Assembly (NCBI GenBank): GCA_017520825.1 | Contig: JAFXEX010000026.1 | Span: forward strand, 1-64,000 | Origin: Clostridia bacterium | GTDB taxonomy: Bacteria > Bacillota > Clostridia > Oscillospirales > SIG627 | DNA length: 64,000 bases | Reading direction: 5' to 3' | Shown: positions 48,101 to 57,831 of the stretch, piece after piece | How the letters are laid out: every line of letters starts with the position of its first letter | How positions within the stretch are numbered: position 1 is the stretch's first letter | The notes under the pieces: generated by a model | What the model was told of the DNA's origin: nothing | The model's database searches: none | The model's input: the letters and a program-made list of their open reading frames with translations, nothing else | Translations under genes and position numbers: made by a program

Positions 48101-49060
48101 TTATTCATATGTTTTTTTTATTTGCTCTGCTATTCTTGATATAACGGATACGCATACAGAATTTCCTGCTTGTTTGTATAATCGAGCGTCACTCATGTTT
48201 GAAGGCAAAATAAAATCTTTTGGAAATCCTTGTGTATTAAAGCATTCATGAGGTGTCATTTTACGAATTCCATGTTTTGTTTTAATAATACATACATTAT
48301 GTCCACCTTCACCTTGATTGGCTGTTAGTGTTGGAACAACTCCACTTTTATTTTTTCTAACATATCTTCTTCTCCATTGATAAACAGCGTTATCATCGTC
48401 AATAGCATCTACAAGCTTCTCGTAAATGTCTCCTTTAAATTTTCCTGCCGTATAATAATATTTTTCTGGCATTTTTGTGTTGAAGTCAATGATATCGGAT
48501 AACTTTGAAGATAATTCTATTGGCTCGGGAAATTCAAATTTATTAAATTTATCGGTATCTTTAAAAGCTACTATGTAAATACGTTCTCTATTTTGAGGAA
48601 TGTTACCATAAGACATAGCATTTAAAACTGCATGCTTTACATGATAGTTTTGTGCGTGTAACTCTTTTAATATCACTTTAAAAGTATTTCCGTTATCGTG
48701 GCTAACAAGGTTTTTTACATTTTCTAAAAAAATAATTTGTGGTTGTTTTTCTTTGAAAATTCTGACTAACTCGAAAAATAATATTCCTCGACCTTTTTCG
48801 TCTTCAAATCCTTTTCTAAGTCCGGCAATACTAAAAGCTTGACATGGAAATCCTGCAAGCATTACGTCAAAATCGGGGATTTCTGATGTTTTAACATCGT
48901 GAATGTCTCTACAATCAACTTTAATATCAAAATTATGTTCAAATGTCTGTGCCGGATACGCATCAATCTCATTGGCGTATATGGTTTTAAAAAAACCGGT
49001 ACTTTCAAATCCAATATCAATTCCGCCTACTCCGGCAAAGAAAGAAGCACATTTTAACAT
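48101..49060 (-). CDS. DNA (cytosine-5) methyltransferase of a type II R-M system
   Basis: The 319-residue enzyme has all main C5-methyltransferase motifs: FFAGVGGIDIGF (I), GFPCQAFS with catalytic Cys (IV), ENVKNL (VI), QNRERIYIVAF (VIII) and QAGNSVCVSVI (X). The target recognition region (about 185-265) is small. The DNA is notably AT-rich compared with its surroundings: the 60 bases from 48481 contain only 19 G or C. It is the last gene of a four-gene minus-strand set with two nuclease candidates and a controller-like gene. Confidence 0.93.
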   Translation of the reverse strand: MLKCASFFAGVGGIDIGFESTGFFKTIYANEIDAYPAQTFEHNFDIKVDCRDIHDVKTSEIPDFDVMLAGFPCQAFSIAGLRKGFEDEKGRGILFFELVRIFKEKQPQIIFLENVKNLVSHDNGNTFKVILKELHAQNYHVKHAVLNAMSYGNIPQNRERIYIVAFKDTDKFNKFEFPEPIELSSKLSDIIDFNTKMPEKYYYTAGKFKGDIYEKLVDAIDDDNAVYQWRRRYVRKNKSGVVPTLTANQGEGGHNVCIIKTKHGIRKMTPHECFNTQGFPKDFILPSNMSDARLYKQAGNSVCVSVISRIAEQIKKTYE

Positions 49061-49179
49061 TTTGCTTTGCCACCTTTTTTAAAAATCACATAACAATCTT
49101 AAATCATTTTATCATAAATTACAACGCGATGCAATACTATTCCAAAAACAAACTCAAATTTTTAATTTGTTGAGTATTT

Positions 49180-49725
49180 TCAATTGCGATTATCTTCAAT
49201 TATTCTACATCTTCGTATATCAAAGATGATGTCGGGCTGTAAATTATAAGCATCAACAAAAAGGCTTTGTAAACTAACGTGAGGGCGACGCCCTTTATCT
49301 TTTTGTTGTTGTATGGTTTCCCGACTATTAGCTGGGTAAGTCCCAAACTCGTTGGAATTAATTTTTAAATCGTATATATACAAAAGGTTATCGTCAAGGT
49401 TAAACCTTAAGAAAACCAAGTCGTCGAATTGGCATCTCGGTCCAAAAGAAGACAAGTCTCCTTCAAATCTTGAAGTTGCTTTAAATTCAATTTTTCTGTT
49501 TGTTACGGGGTCGAAAGCGTCTCCAACTTCATCTCCTCTGTTCCACAAAAATCCTAAACAGTAACAGCCCATAGGTTCACTAATTGCATCAGGCATATTA
49601 ATTCCTCGATGGCTGTTGTTCTGAATATATGTATTTAAATCTTTCCATTTGAAGTATGCTCTGCAAGTTTCGTCAATTCTTGCGTCGTCTATTTGAATAT
49701 GTCCAAAGCTATTATAAATAGGCAT
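49180..49725 (-). CDS. Probable type II restriction endonuclease (181 aa)
   Basis: The 181-residue protein shows a PD-(D/E)xK-like pattern: D in NRGDEVGDAFDP and E-F-K in RKIEFKATS (about 70-85). Its size and place beside a C5 methyltransferase suggest the cognate endonuclease. It may belong to the small Bsp6I-type family (GCNGC cutters), but I cannot confirm the assignment. It is 119 bp upstream of the methyltransferase gene. Confidence 0.6.
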   Translation of the reverse strand: MPIYNSFGHIQIDDARIDETCRAYFKWKDLNTYIQNNSHRGINMPDAISEPMGCYCLGFLWNRGDEVGDAFDPVTNRKIEFKATSRFEGDLSSFGPRCQFDDLVFLRFNLDDNLLYIYDLKINSNEFGTYPANSRETIQQQKDKGRRPHVSLQSLFVDAYNLQPDIIFDIRRCRIIEDNRN

Positions 49726-49768
49726 AAAATTATTTCTCCTTGATAATTATTTTTATGTAGGTTTTGCT

Positions 49769-50518
49769 TTATAATATTTTTAAAAGCTCAAAAACATCGT
49801 TCATATCTCCCGCTTGCACATAATAATTATCTGCGTCAAAACGAGTGTTTTTGTTAAGAAAAGTACCTTTATTAACAAAATAATTGTTTTTTATTATGTA
49901 TTTGAAATCTTCTAAGCTGATATATCCAGCATAATCATATAACCACTCTGTATTTTTAAATTTTTCCCACAAAAGTTTACGGTCAATGCTATTTTCATAT
50001 AGCAAAAAGTTATTTCGCATGATGTCTTCGCAAAAAGGGCTTATTCTTACCAATACAAAAAAGTCGTAAGAGGAATTTCCAGTATCTTTGTTTGGAATAT
50101 AGTTGCCGTTTTCATCCCAATCATTTTTTTCTAAAAGCAAAAGATTTCCAAAGCTTTTTGTTGATTTTATTGCTATTTTTTTATTGTTTACAACAATATC
50201 AACGCTATCCCAAGTCCCTAACTTTGATACGGAAAAATCAGGAAACACAGAAGAATCTATTTTATAAAACAAGTTACACGCTGCACACTCCGCTAATTTT
50301 CCCTGAAAAGTATTAGCGAAAATCTCACCGTTTTTTCTTTCGGTAGTGCCTCCTGTTCTGTGATTTCTATGTTCTCCTTTGTTTGCAAAAGTCATATCAT
50401 AAGCAAACTCAAAAACTCTTTTGATTGTTTCTTCCTTAAATTTATTTGTTTTGGAATCAAAAGGTTTTTTGTGCGTTATAAAAAAAACCTCGTCTGCTTC
50501 TTTTAATCTATGAAACAC
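49769..50518 (-). CDS. Second nuclease candidate of the R-M island (249 aa)
   Basis: The 249-residue protein carries an E...D-x(n)-xIKS arrangement: FQGKLAECAA with E, WDSVDIVV with D, and KKIAIKSTK with the catalytic-type lysine (about 85-125). This is a PD-(D/E)xK-type core. It is not recognised as a known restriction enzyme. With the 181-aa gene it forms an unusual R-R-M set. It could be a second endonuclease, a nicking V-type repair enzyme (but the Vsr motif is not evident) or a degraded or new specificity. AT-rich. Confidence 0.55.
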   Translation of the reverse strand: MFHRLKEADEVFFITHKKPFDSKTNKFKEETIKRVFEFAYDMTFANKGEHRNHRTGGTTERKNGEIFANTFQGKLAECAACNLFYKIDSSVFPDFSVSKLGTWDSVDIVVNNKKIAIKSTKSFGNLLLLEKNDWDENGNYIPNKDTGNSSYDFFVLVRISPFCEDIMRNNFLLYENSIDRKLLWEKFKNTEWLYDYAGYISLEDFKYIIKNNYFVNKGTFLNKNTRFDADNYYVQAGDMNDVFELLKIL

Positions 50519-51774: not shown

Positions 51775-52746
51775 TTATTCGGTTATTTGCTGAACTATAA
51801 CGCCGTTTTCAAAAATACCCTCGTATACTCTTCCCGAGAGCCATTGATATCTGCCCTTGCCCGAAAGCTCGTTCTGAGCAAATTCGCCGATATAAAACTC
51901 AATTTGGTTTCTCAAAAGAATATTTTCAAACGTCTGGAAAAAGGGGTTAACGGTAGTGGCGTCGGTTTTGTCGCCGTCAATAAAATGTCGGCTGAAATCA
52001 CCCTCAAAATAGGCAAGGAAGCCCGATTTAAACTCGTCGTTCAGCTCTACGTTGAAAAGTGAATCAAATTCGCTGGAATATTCCTCGCTCTTGGACCAGA
52101 CGTAGATTCCTCTGCCGGTGCGCTTGTCTGCCGAAAATTCTCCAACGTAAATATCGTCGTCGTCAAAAAGGTATGCGCCGTTGCCCTCTTTTATGGAATT
52201 TACGTACTGACCGATATATACGGCGCCGTTAGCAAAGGAGGTTATGCCGAAGCCGTTCTTTTCGCCCTTTCTGAACTCTCCCTGATAAACGGTTCCGTCC
52301 TTCTTTACGTACTTACCGAAGCCGTCTCTGATTTCGTGGTCGGTAGCACCGATGTAAACGTCGCCGTTGGTATAGGTTACGGTGGCGTTACCCGTGCAGT
52401 AGCCCTCATAGAAATCGCCTTCAAAAATAGTACCGTCAGCCTTGGTAAGAGTTCCCTTTCCGTGAGGAAGATAGCCCGAAAGAGCGCCAATATAGATATC
52501 GCCGTTCTTTCCCTCTATGGTTTTGTTTTCAGCGTCAAGAGTGGCCGTTCTTCCGTCGTAATAGTACAGTCTACCCGAAACGGCAACGCCGTTTTCCACT
52601 CTGCCCACGAATTTAAGCTCGTGGGTTTTGTCGTTTACGTATCTCACGCCCACAAAGGCATAGAGAACTATAAACGTTACGGTTAAAAGCACCAGGGCGA
52701 AAATAAAGGTTACAGCCAACGGGTGCATTTTTCTTTTGTTTGCCAA
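51775..52746 (-). CDS. Membrane-anchored MORN-repeat protein
   Basis: The 323-residue protein has an N-terminal membrane segment (about 12-33) followed by at least eight MORN repeats of about 23 residues, for example YIGALSGYLPHGKGTL, FEGDFYEGYCTGNATV, YQGEFRKGEKNGFGI and YIGQYVNSIKEGNGAY, and two more after residue 250. The repeats form a beta-hairpin stack and would be outside the membrane. Bacterial MORN proteins have various roles in scaffolding; the function here is unknown. AAGGAGGAAG precedes the ATG. Confidence 0.8.
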   Translation of the reverse strand: MANKRKMHPLAVTFIFALVLLTVTFIVLYAFVGVRYVNDKTHELKFVGRVENGVAVSGRLYYYDGRTATLDAENKTIEGKNGDIYIGALSGYLPHGKGTLTKADGTIFEGDFYEGYCTGNATVTYTNGDVYIGATDHEIRDGFGKYVKKDGTVYQGEFRKGEKNGFGITSFANGAVYIGQYVNSIKEGNGAYLFDDDDIYVGEFSADKRTGRGIYVWSKSEEYSSEFDSLFNVELNDEFKSGFLAYFEGDFSRHFIDGDKTDATTVNPFFQTFENILLRNQIEFYIGEFAQNELSGKGRYQWLSGRVYEGIFENGVIVQQITE

Positions 52747-54495: not shown

Positions 54496-55392
54496 TTATT
54501 TGTCCAATTGATCTATAAAATCTTCTCCGCAGAGAACTGTAAGAAGCTCCTCTAAGTCGGCAGATGAGGAATAGCTCAAAGTAAGCTTTCCTGAGGATTT
54601 TCCTGCCGTTTGCTTAATCTTAACTCGCCTTCTTATTCTTTCCGTAGCAAGCCTTTCCACCGATGCGATATATTCGTCGGTTATTGAAAAGGGCTTGGTT
54701 GAAGGTGGTGTCAGCTCCTCTCGCACAAGAGGTTGAGTGTTCACCGTCCAACGCACCTCATTTTCGGTATCTCTTACCGAAAGTCCCTCTGAAACTATAC
54801 GGGACACCATTTCAAGAATGTCCTCGTCGTTTTTAAGGGGCAAAAGCGCTCTTGCGTGACCTGCCGAAATAGAGCCGTCGCGAAGGGCTTCAAGGGCAGG
54901 CTTTGGAAGCTTGAGAAGTCTGAGTGCGTTTGTAACGGCGCTTCTCGATTTTCCTATTCTGTCTGCTGCCTCTTCCTGAGTAATGCCGAAGTCGGAAATG
55001 AGCTTTTCGTAGCCCATAGCCTCGTCTACGGGGTTTAAATCCTCTCTTTGCAGGTTCTCAATGAGAGCGATTTCGGCTGCATCACGGTCCGTTATGTCGT
55101 CTCTGATGATTACGGGAAGCTTTTCAAGTCCTGCAATCTGTGACGCTCTGTAACGGCGCTCACCAGCGACAATTTTGTACTGTGTTCCCGATTTGCGCAC
55201 TATAAGAGGCTGAATAACACCGTGTATTTTTATGGACTCGGCAAGCTCGTTTATAGTGTCGTCGATAAAGGTTTTTCTGTGCTGGTTGGCATCGGGGATG
55301 ATTTTCTTTATGTCAAGCTCTCTGACCTCCTGGTCGGTATCAGAGTCAAGAAAAAGAGCGTCAAGTCCCTTTCCTAATCCTTTTTTTTCCAT
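54496..55392 (-). CDS. parB: Chromosome partitioning protein ParB (Spo0J)
   Basis: The 298-residue CTP-dependent clamp binds parS. The N-terminal domain has the box with NQHRKTF and the conserved GERRYRAS (about 77-84), followed by the HTH region (EEAADRIGKSRSAVTNALRLLKLP, about 135-158). It is co-transcribed with parA, which ends 28 bp before its start. Two perfect parS sites are 0.9 and 2.4 kb away. Confidence 0.95.
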   Translation of the reverse strand: MEKKGLGKGLDALFLDSDTDQEVRELDIKKIIPDANQHRKTFIDDTINELAESIKIHGVIQPLIVRKSGTQYKIVAGERRYRASQIAGLEKLPVIIRDDITDRDAAEIALIENLQREDLNPVDEAMGYEKLISDFGITQEEAADRIGKSRSAVTNALRLLKLPKPALEALRDGSISAGHARALLPLKNDEDILEMVSRIVSEGLSVRDTENEVRWTVNTQPLVREELTPPSTKPFSITDEYIASVERLATERIRRRVKIKQTAGKSSGKLTLSYSSSADLEELLTVLCGEDFIDQLDK

Positions 55393-55420: not shown

Positions 55421-56179
55421 TTAGTTTTCTACTCTGCTTATCAGCTCTTTGGTGACCTCCATGTAATTCAAAGCGCCACGGGAAAATTTATCGTAATAGT
55501 TGATAGGCTTTGAATGGCTCGGTGCTTCCGAAAGCCTTACGTTACGTGGAATCGAGTTTTTGAAGAGCTTACCCGGGAAATGCTTCTTCACTTCCTCCAT
55601 AACCTGAACGGTCAGGTTCAGTCTGCCGTCGTACATTGTGAGAATAACGCCCAACAAATCAAGCTCGGGGTTGTATAAGCGCCTTACCTGCTTAATTGTG
55701 AAGATAAGCTGAGAAAGACCCTCAAGAGCAAAATATTCGCACTGCATAGGCACTGTTACGTAATCAGATGCAGTCAGAGCGTTAAGGGTTATAAGACTAA
55801 GAGACGGAGGACAGTCAAGAATGACGTAGTCGTACTCGTCTTTTATGGGCAAAAACGCCTCTTTAAGCTTGTTTTCTCTCTTACTTTGGTCTGCAAGAGC
55901 AATATCTGCTGCCGCAAGATTCATATCAGAGGGTAAAACGTCAAGCCCCTTGAATTTAGTGGTTTGAATAGCATCCTTTATAGGTGCGCCCGACAACATA
56001 ACGTCATATAGCGTTATTTCGGCACTTTTCGCCCCTACTGCAGAGGAAGCGTTGCCCTGAGGGTCGCAGTCTACAAGTAAGGTTTTCTTGCCGAGATAGC
56101 CTAAATCGGCAGCTATATTCACTGCAGAAGTGGTTTTTCCTACGCCACCCTTTTGGTTGGCAAAAGCAATTATCTTCAT
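55421..56179 (-). CDS. parA: Chromosome partitioning ATPase ParA (Soj)
   Basis: The 252-residue ATPase has the deviant Walker A NQKGGVGKTTS (about 8-18), ALDCPPSL-type Walker B (YVILDCPPSL) and LVDCDPQGN. It moves or positions ParB-bound origins. The canonical small size and location next to parB mark it as the chromosomal Soj. Confidence 0.96.
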   Translation of the reverse strand: MKIIAFANQKGGVGKTTSAVNIAADLGYLGKKTLLVDCDPQGNASSAVGAKSAEITLYDVMLSGAPIKDAIQTTKFKGLDVLPSDMNLAAADIALADQSKRENKLKEAFLPIKDEYDYVILDCPPSLSLITLNALTASDYVTVPMQCEYFALEGLSQLIFTIKQVRRLYNPELDLLGVILTMYDGRLNLTVQVMEEVKKHFPGKLFKNSIPRNVRLSEAPSHSKPINYYDKFSRGALNYMEVTKELISRVEN

Positions 56180-56278: not shown

Positions 56279-56294
56279 TGTTTCACGTGAAACA
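56279..56294. promoter_or_regulatory. parS centromere site 1
   Basis: TGTTTCACGTGAAACA, a perfect 16-bp parS palindrome, lies between parA and the ParB paralogue gene. Confidence 0.97.
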
Positions 56295-56304
56295 TTTATT
56301 GCTA

Positions 56305-57063
56305 TCAGTTTTCAATACGGATTTTGTACTCCGTACTGCCGTTTTTCTGTTCTGACATGAGGTTTGCTTTAATTCCTGCCTCTTTTAGCGTAGTTATTGC
56401 TCGGGACAAGGTGTTGTCAAAAAGCCTCATATCCCGAAATTTAGGCGTTCTGTTGGCTTTAGCCTTTGAAACCACTCTTTTTCCTCGGCGCTCTTTTTCG
56501 CATAAAGCCTGCACCTCGGTAAGCTTAAGCCTTGATTGAATTACCTCGCTCAGTAGCTCCGTTCTCTTGCATATTTCATCAAAAGAAGCTATTTCAGAGG
56601 CTATTTCGGGGCTTATGCCGTTGCGCCGTACGATTTCTCTTTCAAATTCGCCCATTTTTGTCAGCTTTAGTAAGGAATATAGTTCTTTTTCGCTATAGCC
56701 TGCGCCGTCACATAGCTCTTCGGGAGTTAATCCTTCGTTGACTATTAAAGACCGAAGCGCCTCTGCTTCTTCAAAGCAGTCCTGCTTTTCTTTCTTTTTT
56801 ATTATTACTCTTGCCAGCTCCGACGGAGTTTCTGTAACGTATGCAGGAATAGCGTTCATTCTGGCTAATCTGCAGGCGTAAAACCTTTTAATTCCCGATA
56901 TTACTTCATATCTGTCGGTATGAAGTATTCTCCTTGCCGTAATTGGCACCAGAAGTCCGTGCTTTGCGATACTGCGTGCTAAAGCAACGATTTCGCCCCG
57001 TTCTGCTTGTTCGCAAGGCTTTAACAGTATTAATCTGTCCATTTTTAAATTGTAAAATTCCAT
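56305..57063 (-). CDS. ParB-like protein with altered nucleotide box
   Basis: The 252-residue protein has a ParB N-terminal-like domain (about 8-90, with HGLLVPITARR and VISGIKRFYAC) and an HTH-like helix region (about 110-160, LIVNEGLTPEELCDGAGYSEKELYSLLKL). The GERRxRA motif that binds CTP in ParB and Noc is changed to GIKRFYA, losing the Glu and one Arg. It could be a Noc-like paralogue or a ParB-fold protein without CTP switching. The start is supported by AGGAGGGAG. It is bracketed by the two parS sites. Confidence 0.7.
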   Translation of the reverse strand: MEFYNLKMDRLILLKPCEQAERGEIVALARSIAKHGLLVPITARRILHTDRYEVISGIKRFYACRLARMNAIPAYVTETPSELARVIIKKKEKQDCFEEAEALRSLIVNEGLTPEELCDGAGYSEKELYSLLKLTKMGEFEREIVRRNGISPEIASEIASFDEICKRTELLSEVIQSRLKLTEVQALCEKERRGKRVVSKAKANRTPKFRDMRLFDNTLSRAITTLKEAGIKANLMSEQKNGSTEYKIRIEN

Positions 57064-57145: not shown

Positions 57146-57772
57146 TTATTGTGTCATTTTCTTTAGTTTGTTCAGCGCATCCGATATTGAGCCCACACCG
57201 TCTATTATACCTGCGTTTACTGCTTCTGTTCCGTACAAAATGCTCCCTATGTCGCAGGACATTTCGGTAGTATTGAGCATAAGACGGCGCAATTCGTCGC
57301 TTTTTATCGAGGAATGCTTTACTACAAAGGAATTAATTCTGTCCTGCATTCTGGTGAGATAGTCAAAAGCCTGGTCGACGCCCAAAACAACGCCGTTCAT
57401 TCTTACCGGGTGTATTATCATTGAAGCAGTATGTGTGATAAAGGAATAGTCAGCCGATACTGCCAAGGGAACACCTATACTGTGCCCACCACCTAAAATA
57501 AGGGACACTGTGGGTTTTGACATTCCTGCAATAGCTTCGGCAATAGCCAGACCTGCCTCGACGTCACCACCAACCGTATTAAGCAGTATTAAAACGCCAC
57601 TTACGGAGTAATCCTCCTCTAAAGCAATGATTTTTGGTATAAGCTCCTCGTATTTCGTTGCTTTTATACCTTCGGGCAGAGCCGTATGACCCTCAATTTG
57701 CCCTGAAATCATTAGTGCTTGTAATCTTTTCATTTTCGGCTCTCGCCTTGCTTTAAACATTTTCATATTCAT
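57146..57772 (-). CDS. ClpP-fold serine protease, TepA-like
   Basis: The 208-residue protein has the ClpP/crotonase-like fold with the nucleophile region GGGHSIGVPLA (about 93-103), the catalytic His in IIHPVRMNG and the oxyanion-type GGDVEAGLAIAEAI. It matches the translocation-enhancing protein TepA/ClpP-like family of Firmicutes, which is often near spoIIIE. No ftsK/spoIIIE is next to it here. Its role is unproven in this organism; cytoplasmic location is expected. Confidence 0.8.
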   Translation of the reverse strand: MNMKMFKARREPKMKRLQALMISGQIEGHTALPEGIKATKYEELIPKIIALEEDYSVSGVLILLNTVGGDVEAGLAIAEAIAGMSKPTVSLILGGGHSIGVPLAVSADYSFITHTASMIIHPVRMNGVVLGVDQAFDYLTRMQDRINSFVVKHSSIKSDELRRLMLNTTEMSCDIGSILYGTEAVNAGIIDGVGSISDALNKLKKMTQ

Positions 57773-57815: not shown

Positions 57816-57831
57816 TGTTTCACGTGAAACA
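57816..57831. promoter_or_regulatory. parS centromere site 2
   Basis: TGTTTCACGTGAAACA, identical to parS site 1, lies just upstream of the ClpP-like gene and downstream of the AraC regulator stop. Confidence 0.97.

Follow-up and report, generated by a model that had tools for sequence, protein, structure and literature searches.

A Noc orthologue lacking the GERR glutamate and most DNA-contact residues is preserved across three species of a Clostridia genus

CTP switches are typified by Noc and ParB, and the arginine of their GxxR motif is required for nucleotide binding; GxxR is likewise retained in PadC of Myxococcus xanthus. According to the accessible part of PMC8494293, the Bacillus subtilis ParB variants E78Q and E111Q show no appreciable CTP hydrolysis, and PadC binds CTP without hydrolyzing it, F348 replacing the E78 glutamate and ENLQR being absent. 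For Noc proteins that have lost the GERR glutamate, no published account was found in a search of open-access papers. Here, we analyze a stretch of 64,000 nucleotides from a Clostridia genome (the window), in which an altered noc gene stands within a partition locus composed of the following features.

57063 to 56305, minus strand: decayed Noc orthologue of 252 aa, an open reading frame without internal stop
56875..56895, minus strand: GIKRFYA in the translation of noc (codons/residues 57-63), at the position of GERRxRA, the P motif
55421..56179, minus strand: ParA/Soj, 252 aa, downstream of noc
54496..55392, minus strand: ParB/Spo0J, 298 aa, canonical, with GLGKGL, QHRKTF, GERRYRA, ENLQR and GKSRSAV
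57146..57772, minus strand: ClpP-fold gene, 208 aa, upstream of noc in the same orientation, which we take to be TepA-like
56279..56294, no strand assigned: perfect parS, TGTTTCACGTGAAACA, between noc and parA
57816..57831, no strand assigned: perfect parS, upstream of the TepA-like gene

The two perfect parS sites bracket tepA-noc, and no others were detected in the genome at up to one mismatch (1.5 Mb, 84% complete). The order parS, tepA-like, noc, parS, parA, parB is found in all three gene-bearing genomes of the genus, the other two being G001 and G002; both have a parS in the same noc-parA interval, and the G002 counterpart of the site upstream of the TepA-like gene carries one mismatch. 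Neither ParB/Noc nor a Soj-type ParA was found in G003, G004, and G005 of the same genus (MAGs 68, 90, and 90% complete), where ParA searches returned weak matches of 30-48 bits only. G005 has one perfect parS (C6:221-236) next to a polA-like gene; it lies at the end of a contig, where an assembly gap is possible. A third ParB-like protein of the window genome (L003, G000:C27:13746-14018) reads GHRRTRA. By eye, the minus strand of the window further holds what is presumably a C5-cytosine-methyltransferase-like ORF with two restriction-like neighbor ORFs (48101-50518) and, at 51775-52746, a hydrophobic N-terminus followed by repeated YxGeFxxGxxxG-type units resembling MORN repeats.

A sequence-only reading of the locus had described a ParB-fold paralogue with GIKRFYA next to a Spo0J with GERRYRA, a description borne out by open reading frame, translation, and Pfam domains. 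The window Noc contains ...YEVISGIKRFYACRLA... (GIKRFYA) and its Spo0J neighbor ...YKIVAGERRYRASQIA... (GERRYRA), and the former passes the curated Pfam cut-offs for both of its halves, ParB_N scoring 41.5 bits against 26.3 and HTH_ParB 34.6 bits against 22.6. Sequencing error is unlikely, because both G001 and G002 have GNKRFYA at the same position; G[IN]KR is thus the kind of change common to all three gene-bearing genomes of the genus. The motif change is hence real; its extent had been understated, as ENxQR, the QPR box, and most DNA contacts are also altered. In the alignment with Noc, QPR is replaced by a gapped, unrelated stretch and ENxQR by IIKKK, leaving neither Glu nor Asn; when aligned with Spo0J, gaps fall there instead, and Glu and Asn are still absent. 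None of the Noc CTPase motifs QPR, GERR, and ENxQR is retained, and the two missing glutamates are at the positions of B. subtilis ParB E78 and E111, in the numbering given in the accessible part of PMC8494293. Judged from these residues, the window protein very likely does not run a normal CTP cycle. The earlier suggestion that it is differently controlled is supported.

Several parts of the protein have nevertheless persisted, namely GxxRxxA, a C-terminal block (KFxDxRLFDNTxSRA..LKEAG), and the block KRFYACRL, the latter common to all three species. A whole ParB/Noc fold with the C-terminal helix-strand-strand domain is predicted from a six-row alignment (pLDDT 78.6), in which three Spo0J rows lean the model towards the ParB fold; confidence is low at the C terminus (51 over residues 211-220 and 63-71 over residues 221-252). 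With the three Noc rows only, pLDDT is 56 and most elements appear in the same order, and this version was excluded from the fold search. The best solved match of the model by VIA is Noc 7nfu_B (Z 16.0, 193 aligned, rmsd 6.2).

The ancestry of the gene was addressed by a tree of 25 Noc and 17 Spo0J proteins of the same order, in which each set forms one side of a branch (100/100). Tree and synteny therefore point to a resident Noc and not a new Spo0J duplicate: the window gene is the local chromosomal Noc orthologue, belonging to the Noc rather than the ParB lineage. Although the NCBIfam model nucleoid_noc is the best model for the window protein (107.5 bits, below the cut-off of 315), it does not argue for Noc, because the Spo0J neighbor scores higher on it (241.4 bits). 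We also weighed the import of a parB from a plasmid or phage and rejected it, since phylogeny and gene order fit a resident Noc; 15 records of a phage collection match, the five listed at 25-29% identity. With motif columns blanked, the three genus genes stand apart from the other rows of their own family f1, possibly by long-branch attraction, and are placed beside G092/G138 of family f20 (98/71) and next to G014/G018, an arrangement not settled by bootstrap; the long stem of the genus group renders its placement inside Noc unsure. The sequence-only reading was to fall if its closest homologues proved to be known Noc proteins sharing the motif and binding CTP normally, and it does not fall on that count as worded: they are indeed Noc; the near ones lack GERR, and most of the distant ones keep it.

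DNA contacts were scored at ten positions (Q162, G170, K171, S172, Q173, N178, K179, K184, R201, and R204) of the ParB/Noc residue list in the accessible part of PMC7383237. By this list, the window protein retains 3/10 and its two relatives 1/10 and 0/10, while the 153 Glu-kept Noc of the survey below have a median of 8/10, with five or fewer in 11 of them. Glu stands at the R201 position in each of the three species. Net charge of the HTH is -5 in the window protein and -2 in each relative, compared with +3.6 +/- 2.3 in Glu-kept Noc. The N-terminal membrane-targeting helix of Noc was looked for in the window protein and not found; there is no room for it, since the open frame comprises only 259 aa for a protein of 252 aa, the first predicted strand of which begins at residue 2. 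A ParA-binding peptide of the LG(K/R)GL type is present in the Spo0J neighbor and absent from the window protein. Searching for the NBS ATTTCCCGGGAAAT with up to two mismatches yielded, among the matches listed per strand, 10 versus 4 for the reversed control in the window genome, 10 versus 11 in G001, and 10 versus 6 in G002, counts that are too weak to judge NBS survival against a control that does not match every composition effect.

Because all three noc pairs of the genus have saturated synonymous sites and YN00 gave no estimate for most pairs, selection was assessed by codon-position counts. Between species pairs, divergence is 0.32-0.38 at positions 1+2 and 0.61-0.64 at position 3 (p 7e-14 to 5e-11), and the N domain and the C domain each show the signal. 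Constraint is also seen in the mid/HTH part (p 0.004-0.04), and not all short segments are significant (post-HTH 161-195: p 0.003, 0.14, and 0.08; linker: 0.12, 0.03, and 0.5). The open frame is kept in three species at 49-55% identity, and the codon-position counts show purifying selection on noc across them. Within the genus, dN reaches 0.41-0.52 for noc versus 0.19-0.21 for Spo0J; GERR-type Noc are also faster than Spo0J (G011-G016, 0.41 versus 0.21; G008-G012, 0.43 versus 0.33). The stem of the genus Noc measures 2.24 changes per site versus 0.28 for the Spo0J group, with tips of 0.45-0.84 versus 0.17-0.23. A burst followed by renewed constraint fits these lengths, which we take as a hint only. 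Stem length carries no weight in our case, because blanking the motif columns shortens the stem to 1.06 and long stems also occur elsewhere in Noc (GERR-type G011/G016, 0.99; GYRR-type G014/G018, 2.25).

To place these losses, one Noc per genome was surveyed in 167 genomes of the order with a readable GERR stretch. Of these, 153 still have the GERR glutamate and 14 do not, the losses being spread over four families (f1, 8; f10, 3; f20, 2; f26, 1), where f1 was sampled fully and other families thinly, and where very decayed Noc can escape detection by the Noc HMM. In f1 itself, the window's own family, 8/16 Noc read have lost it. Noc places were listed down to ~244 bits, and 37 genomes were searched again, their second matches being read where fetched; the best matches of G024, G032, G048, G067, G125, and G136, as well as G064 and G160, lie outside the survey reading. 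The count excludes G078, whose Noc has no N domain, G019, whose 471-aa GARR protein is hard to classify, and other fragments, and G044 (GERE), G092, and G138 (both GEKR) were scored as Glu-kept despite other changes. Proteins classed as Spo0J-like by script read GERR in 58/60 cases and GHRR in the remaining two. On the motif-blanked tree, eight changes of state are needed, three of which are forced by well-supported branches alone.

All 14 Glu-lost Noc retain Gly, the last Arg, and Ala of GxxRxxA, whereas the ENxQR Glu is kept in 8/14, its Asn in 8/14, and the QPR Arg in 9/14; the loss does not always go as far as in the window protein. Scored with the same contact list, G128, G151, G169, and G192 have lost Glu and keep 8-9 DNA residues, while the Noc of G011 and G016 (L071 and L077) have an intact GERR and kept CTPase boxes with 0/10 DNA-contact residues, so that their NBS recognition would be gone or changed. 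Hydrolysis and DNA-binding residues have therefore been lost separately. Further combinations occur in G138 and G092 of f20 (L246 and L247), where Glu is kept (GEKR) and ENxQR and most residues of that contact list are lost, and in G014 and G018 of f1 (L074 and L078), where GYRR is combined with a C-terminal block retained and much of the middle (HTH) part missing.

Since the residues for splitting CTP and most of those gripping DNA are lost, yet selection preserves the gene, this Noc relative probably has a different job. The reading we favor, with moderate confidence, is a Noc orthologue turned non-hydrolyzing protein that left DNA. Such a protein would not hydrolyze CTP and would nucleate neither on NBS nor on parS; like other ParB/Noc proteins, it would dimerize through the C-terminal domain, and it could act as a scaffold or regulator brought to its site by another protein, possibly a division or partition factor encoded at the same locus. 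Counting against it, the GxxR arginine retained throughout the Glu-lost Noc suggests that some ligand may still bind, and the HTH, being constrained too, may have acquired another surface or recognize other DNA.

The persistence of Gly, Arg, and Ala in 14/14 Glu-lost Noc also speaks for a PadC-like alternative, which we hold possible though doubtful: GxxR would still hold CTP (or ATP/GTP) in a non-hydrolyzing, ligand-gated adaptor that is not a clamp. PadC itself sets the precedent for binding without hydrolysis, residues 1-94 of the model match PadC 6ryk_B (Z 12.4, rmsd 2.4, 91 aligned), and a 2025 fold survey raises a "noncatalytic binder" as possible in the accessible part of PMC12704722. 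However, the window protein has neither the QPR box nor the ENxQR Asn, and the accessible part of PMC8429893 reports, with a CTP analogue as ligand, weaker binding by Noc N121S (Kd 232 versus 68 uM) and no detectable binding by R89A; moreover, GxxR retention could serve the fold alone. We make no ligand claim, because a heading in the available portion of the 2025 survey states that nucleotide specificity can at present be reliably predicted neither from sequence nor with AlphaFold3 (PMC12704722).

Very unlikely is the proposal of the sequence-only reading, a CTP-independent or locked clamp still working at parS, despite a gene placed between the only two parS sites detected in its genome. ParT, described in the accessible part of PMC12260392, makes a CTP-independent ParB-like protein a known thing, but shows the opposite pattern, lacking the CTPase fold and yet loading at parS. 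With 3/10 contacts of the list, Glu at the R201 position in all three species, a net negative HTH, no LGKGL peptide, and Noc-lineage descent, the window protein is not supported as a partner of the parS system; nor is "locked" supported, because locking onto DNA presupposes an intact DNA-binding part. Least probable is a useless Noc heading for loss, for although other members of the order have an eroded Noc or none that was found, and the window Noc evolves faster than its Spo0J (dN 0.41-0.52 versus 0.19-0.21), GERR-type Noc outpace Spo0J too, three species that share 49-55% identity and have saturated synonymous sites all keep an open frame, codon-position constraint covers both N and C domains, and KRFYACRL is common to all three.

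Beyond the favored reading of a non-hydrolyzing Noc that left DNA, we tentatively suggest that Noc of this order may have repeatedly turned into pseudo-CTPases, losing hydrolysis and DNA binding independently of each other but keeping the nucleotide-binding GxxR and the dimer domain. The window gene might then stand at the end of this series, as a scaffold, either nucleotide-sensing or constitutive, that performs or has replaced nucleoid occlusion without a DNA clamp. The chief interest lies in a loss that recurs and in parts that drop out singly. A natural series of Noc with Glu lost, DNA residues lost, or both would show which part of Noc selection preserves, and separately decayed Noc are ready-made proteins to ask if division control needs the clamp.

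Among known systems, the ATP-binding ParB-fold proteins sulfiredoxin, SerK, and SbnI resemble the window protein in the fold of the N domain (Z about 8-12), but lack HTH and C domain according to the accessible part of PMC12704722. ParT of the Streptomyces plasmid SCP2 is likewise a ParB relative working without a CTP cycle; as far as PMC12260392 is accessible, it has no CTPase fold and loads at parS, whereas the window protein keeps the fold and has an eroded HTH. PadC shares the ParB-CTPase fold and the feature set of a replaced catalytic Glu, lost ENLQR, and kept GxxR; it recruits ParA to the bactofilin cytoskeleton (PMC12704722, accessible part), while the window protein is of Noc descent and has HTH and C-terminal parts. 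Compared with Noc of B. subtilis and G. thermoleovorans, the window protein lacks the GERR Glu, ENxQR, QPR, most NBS contacts, and the N-terminal membrane helix, but it shares with them the absence of the ParA-binding peptide, the C-terminal block, the predicted fold, the position before parA-parB, and the ancestry.
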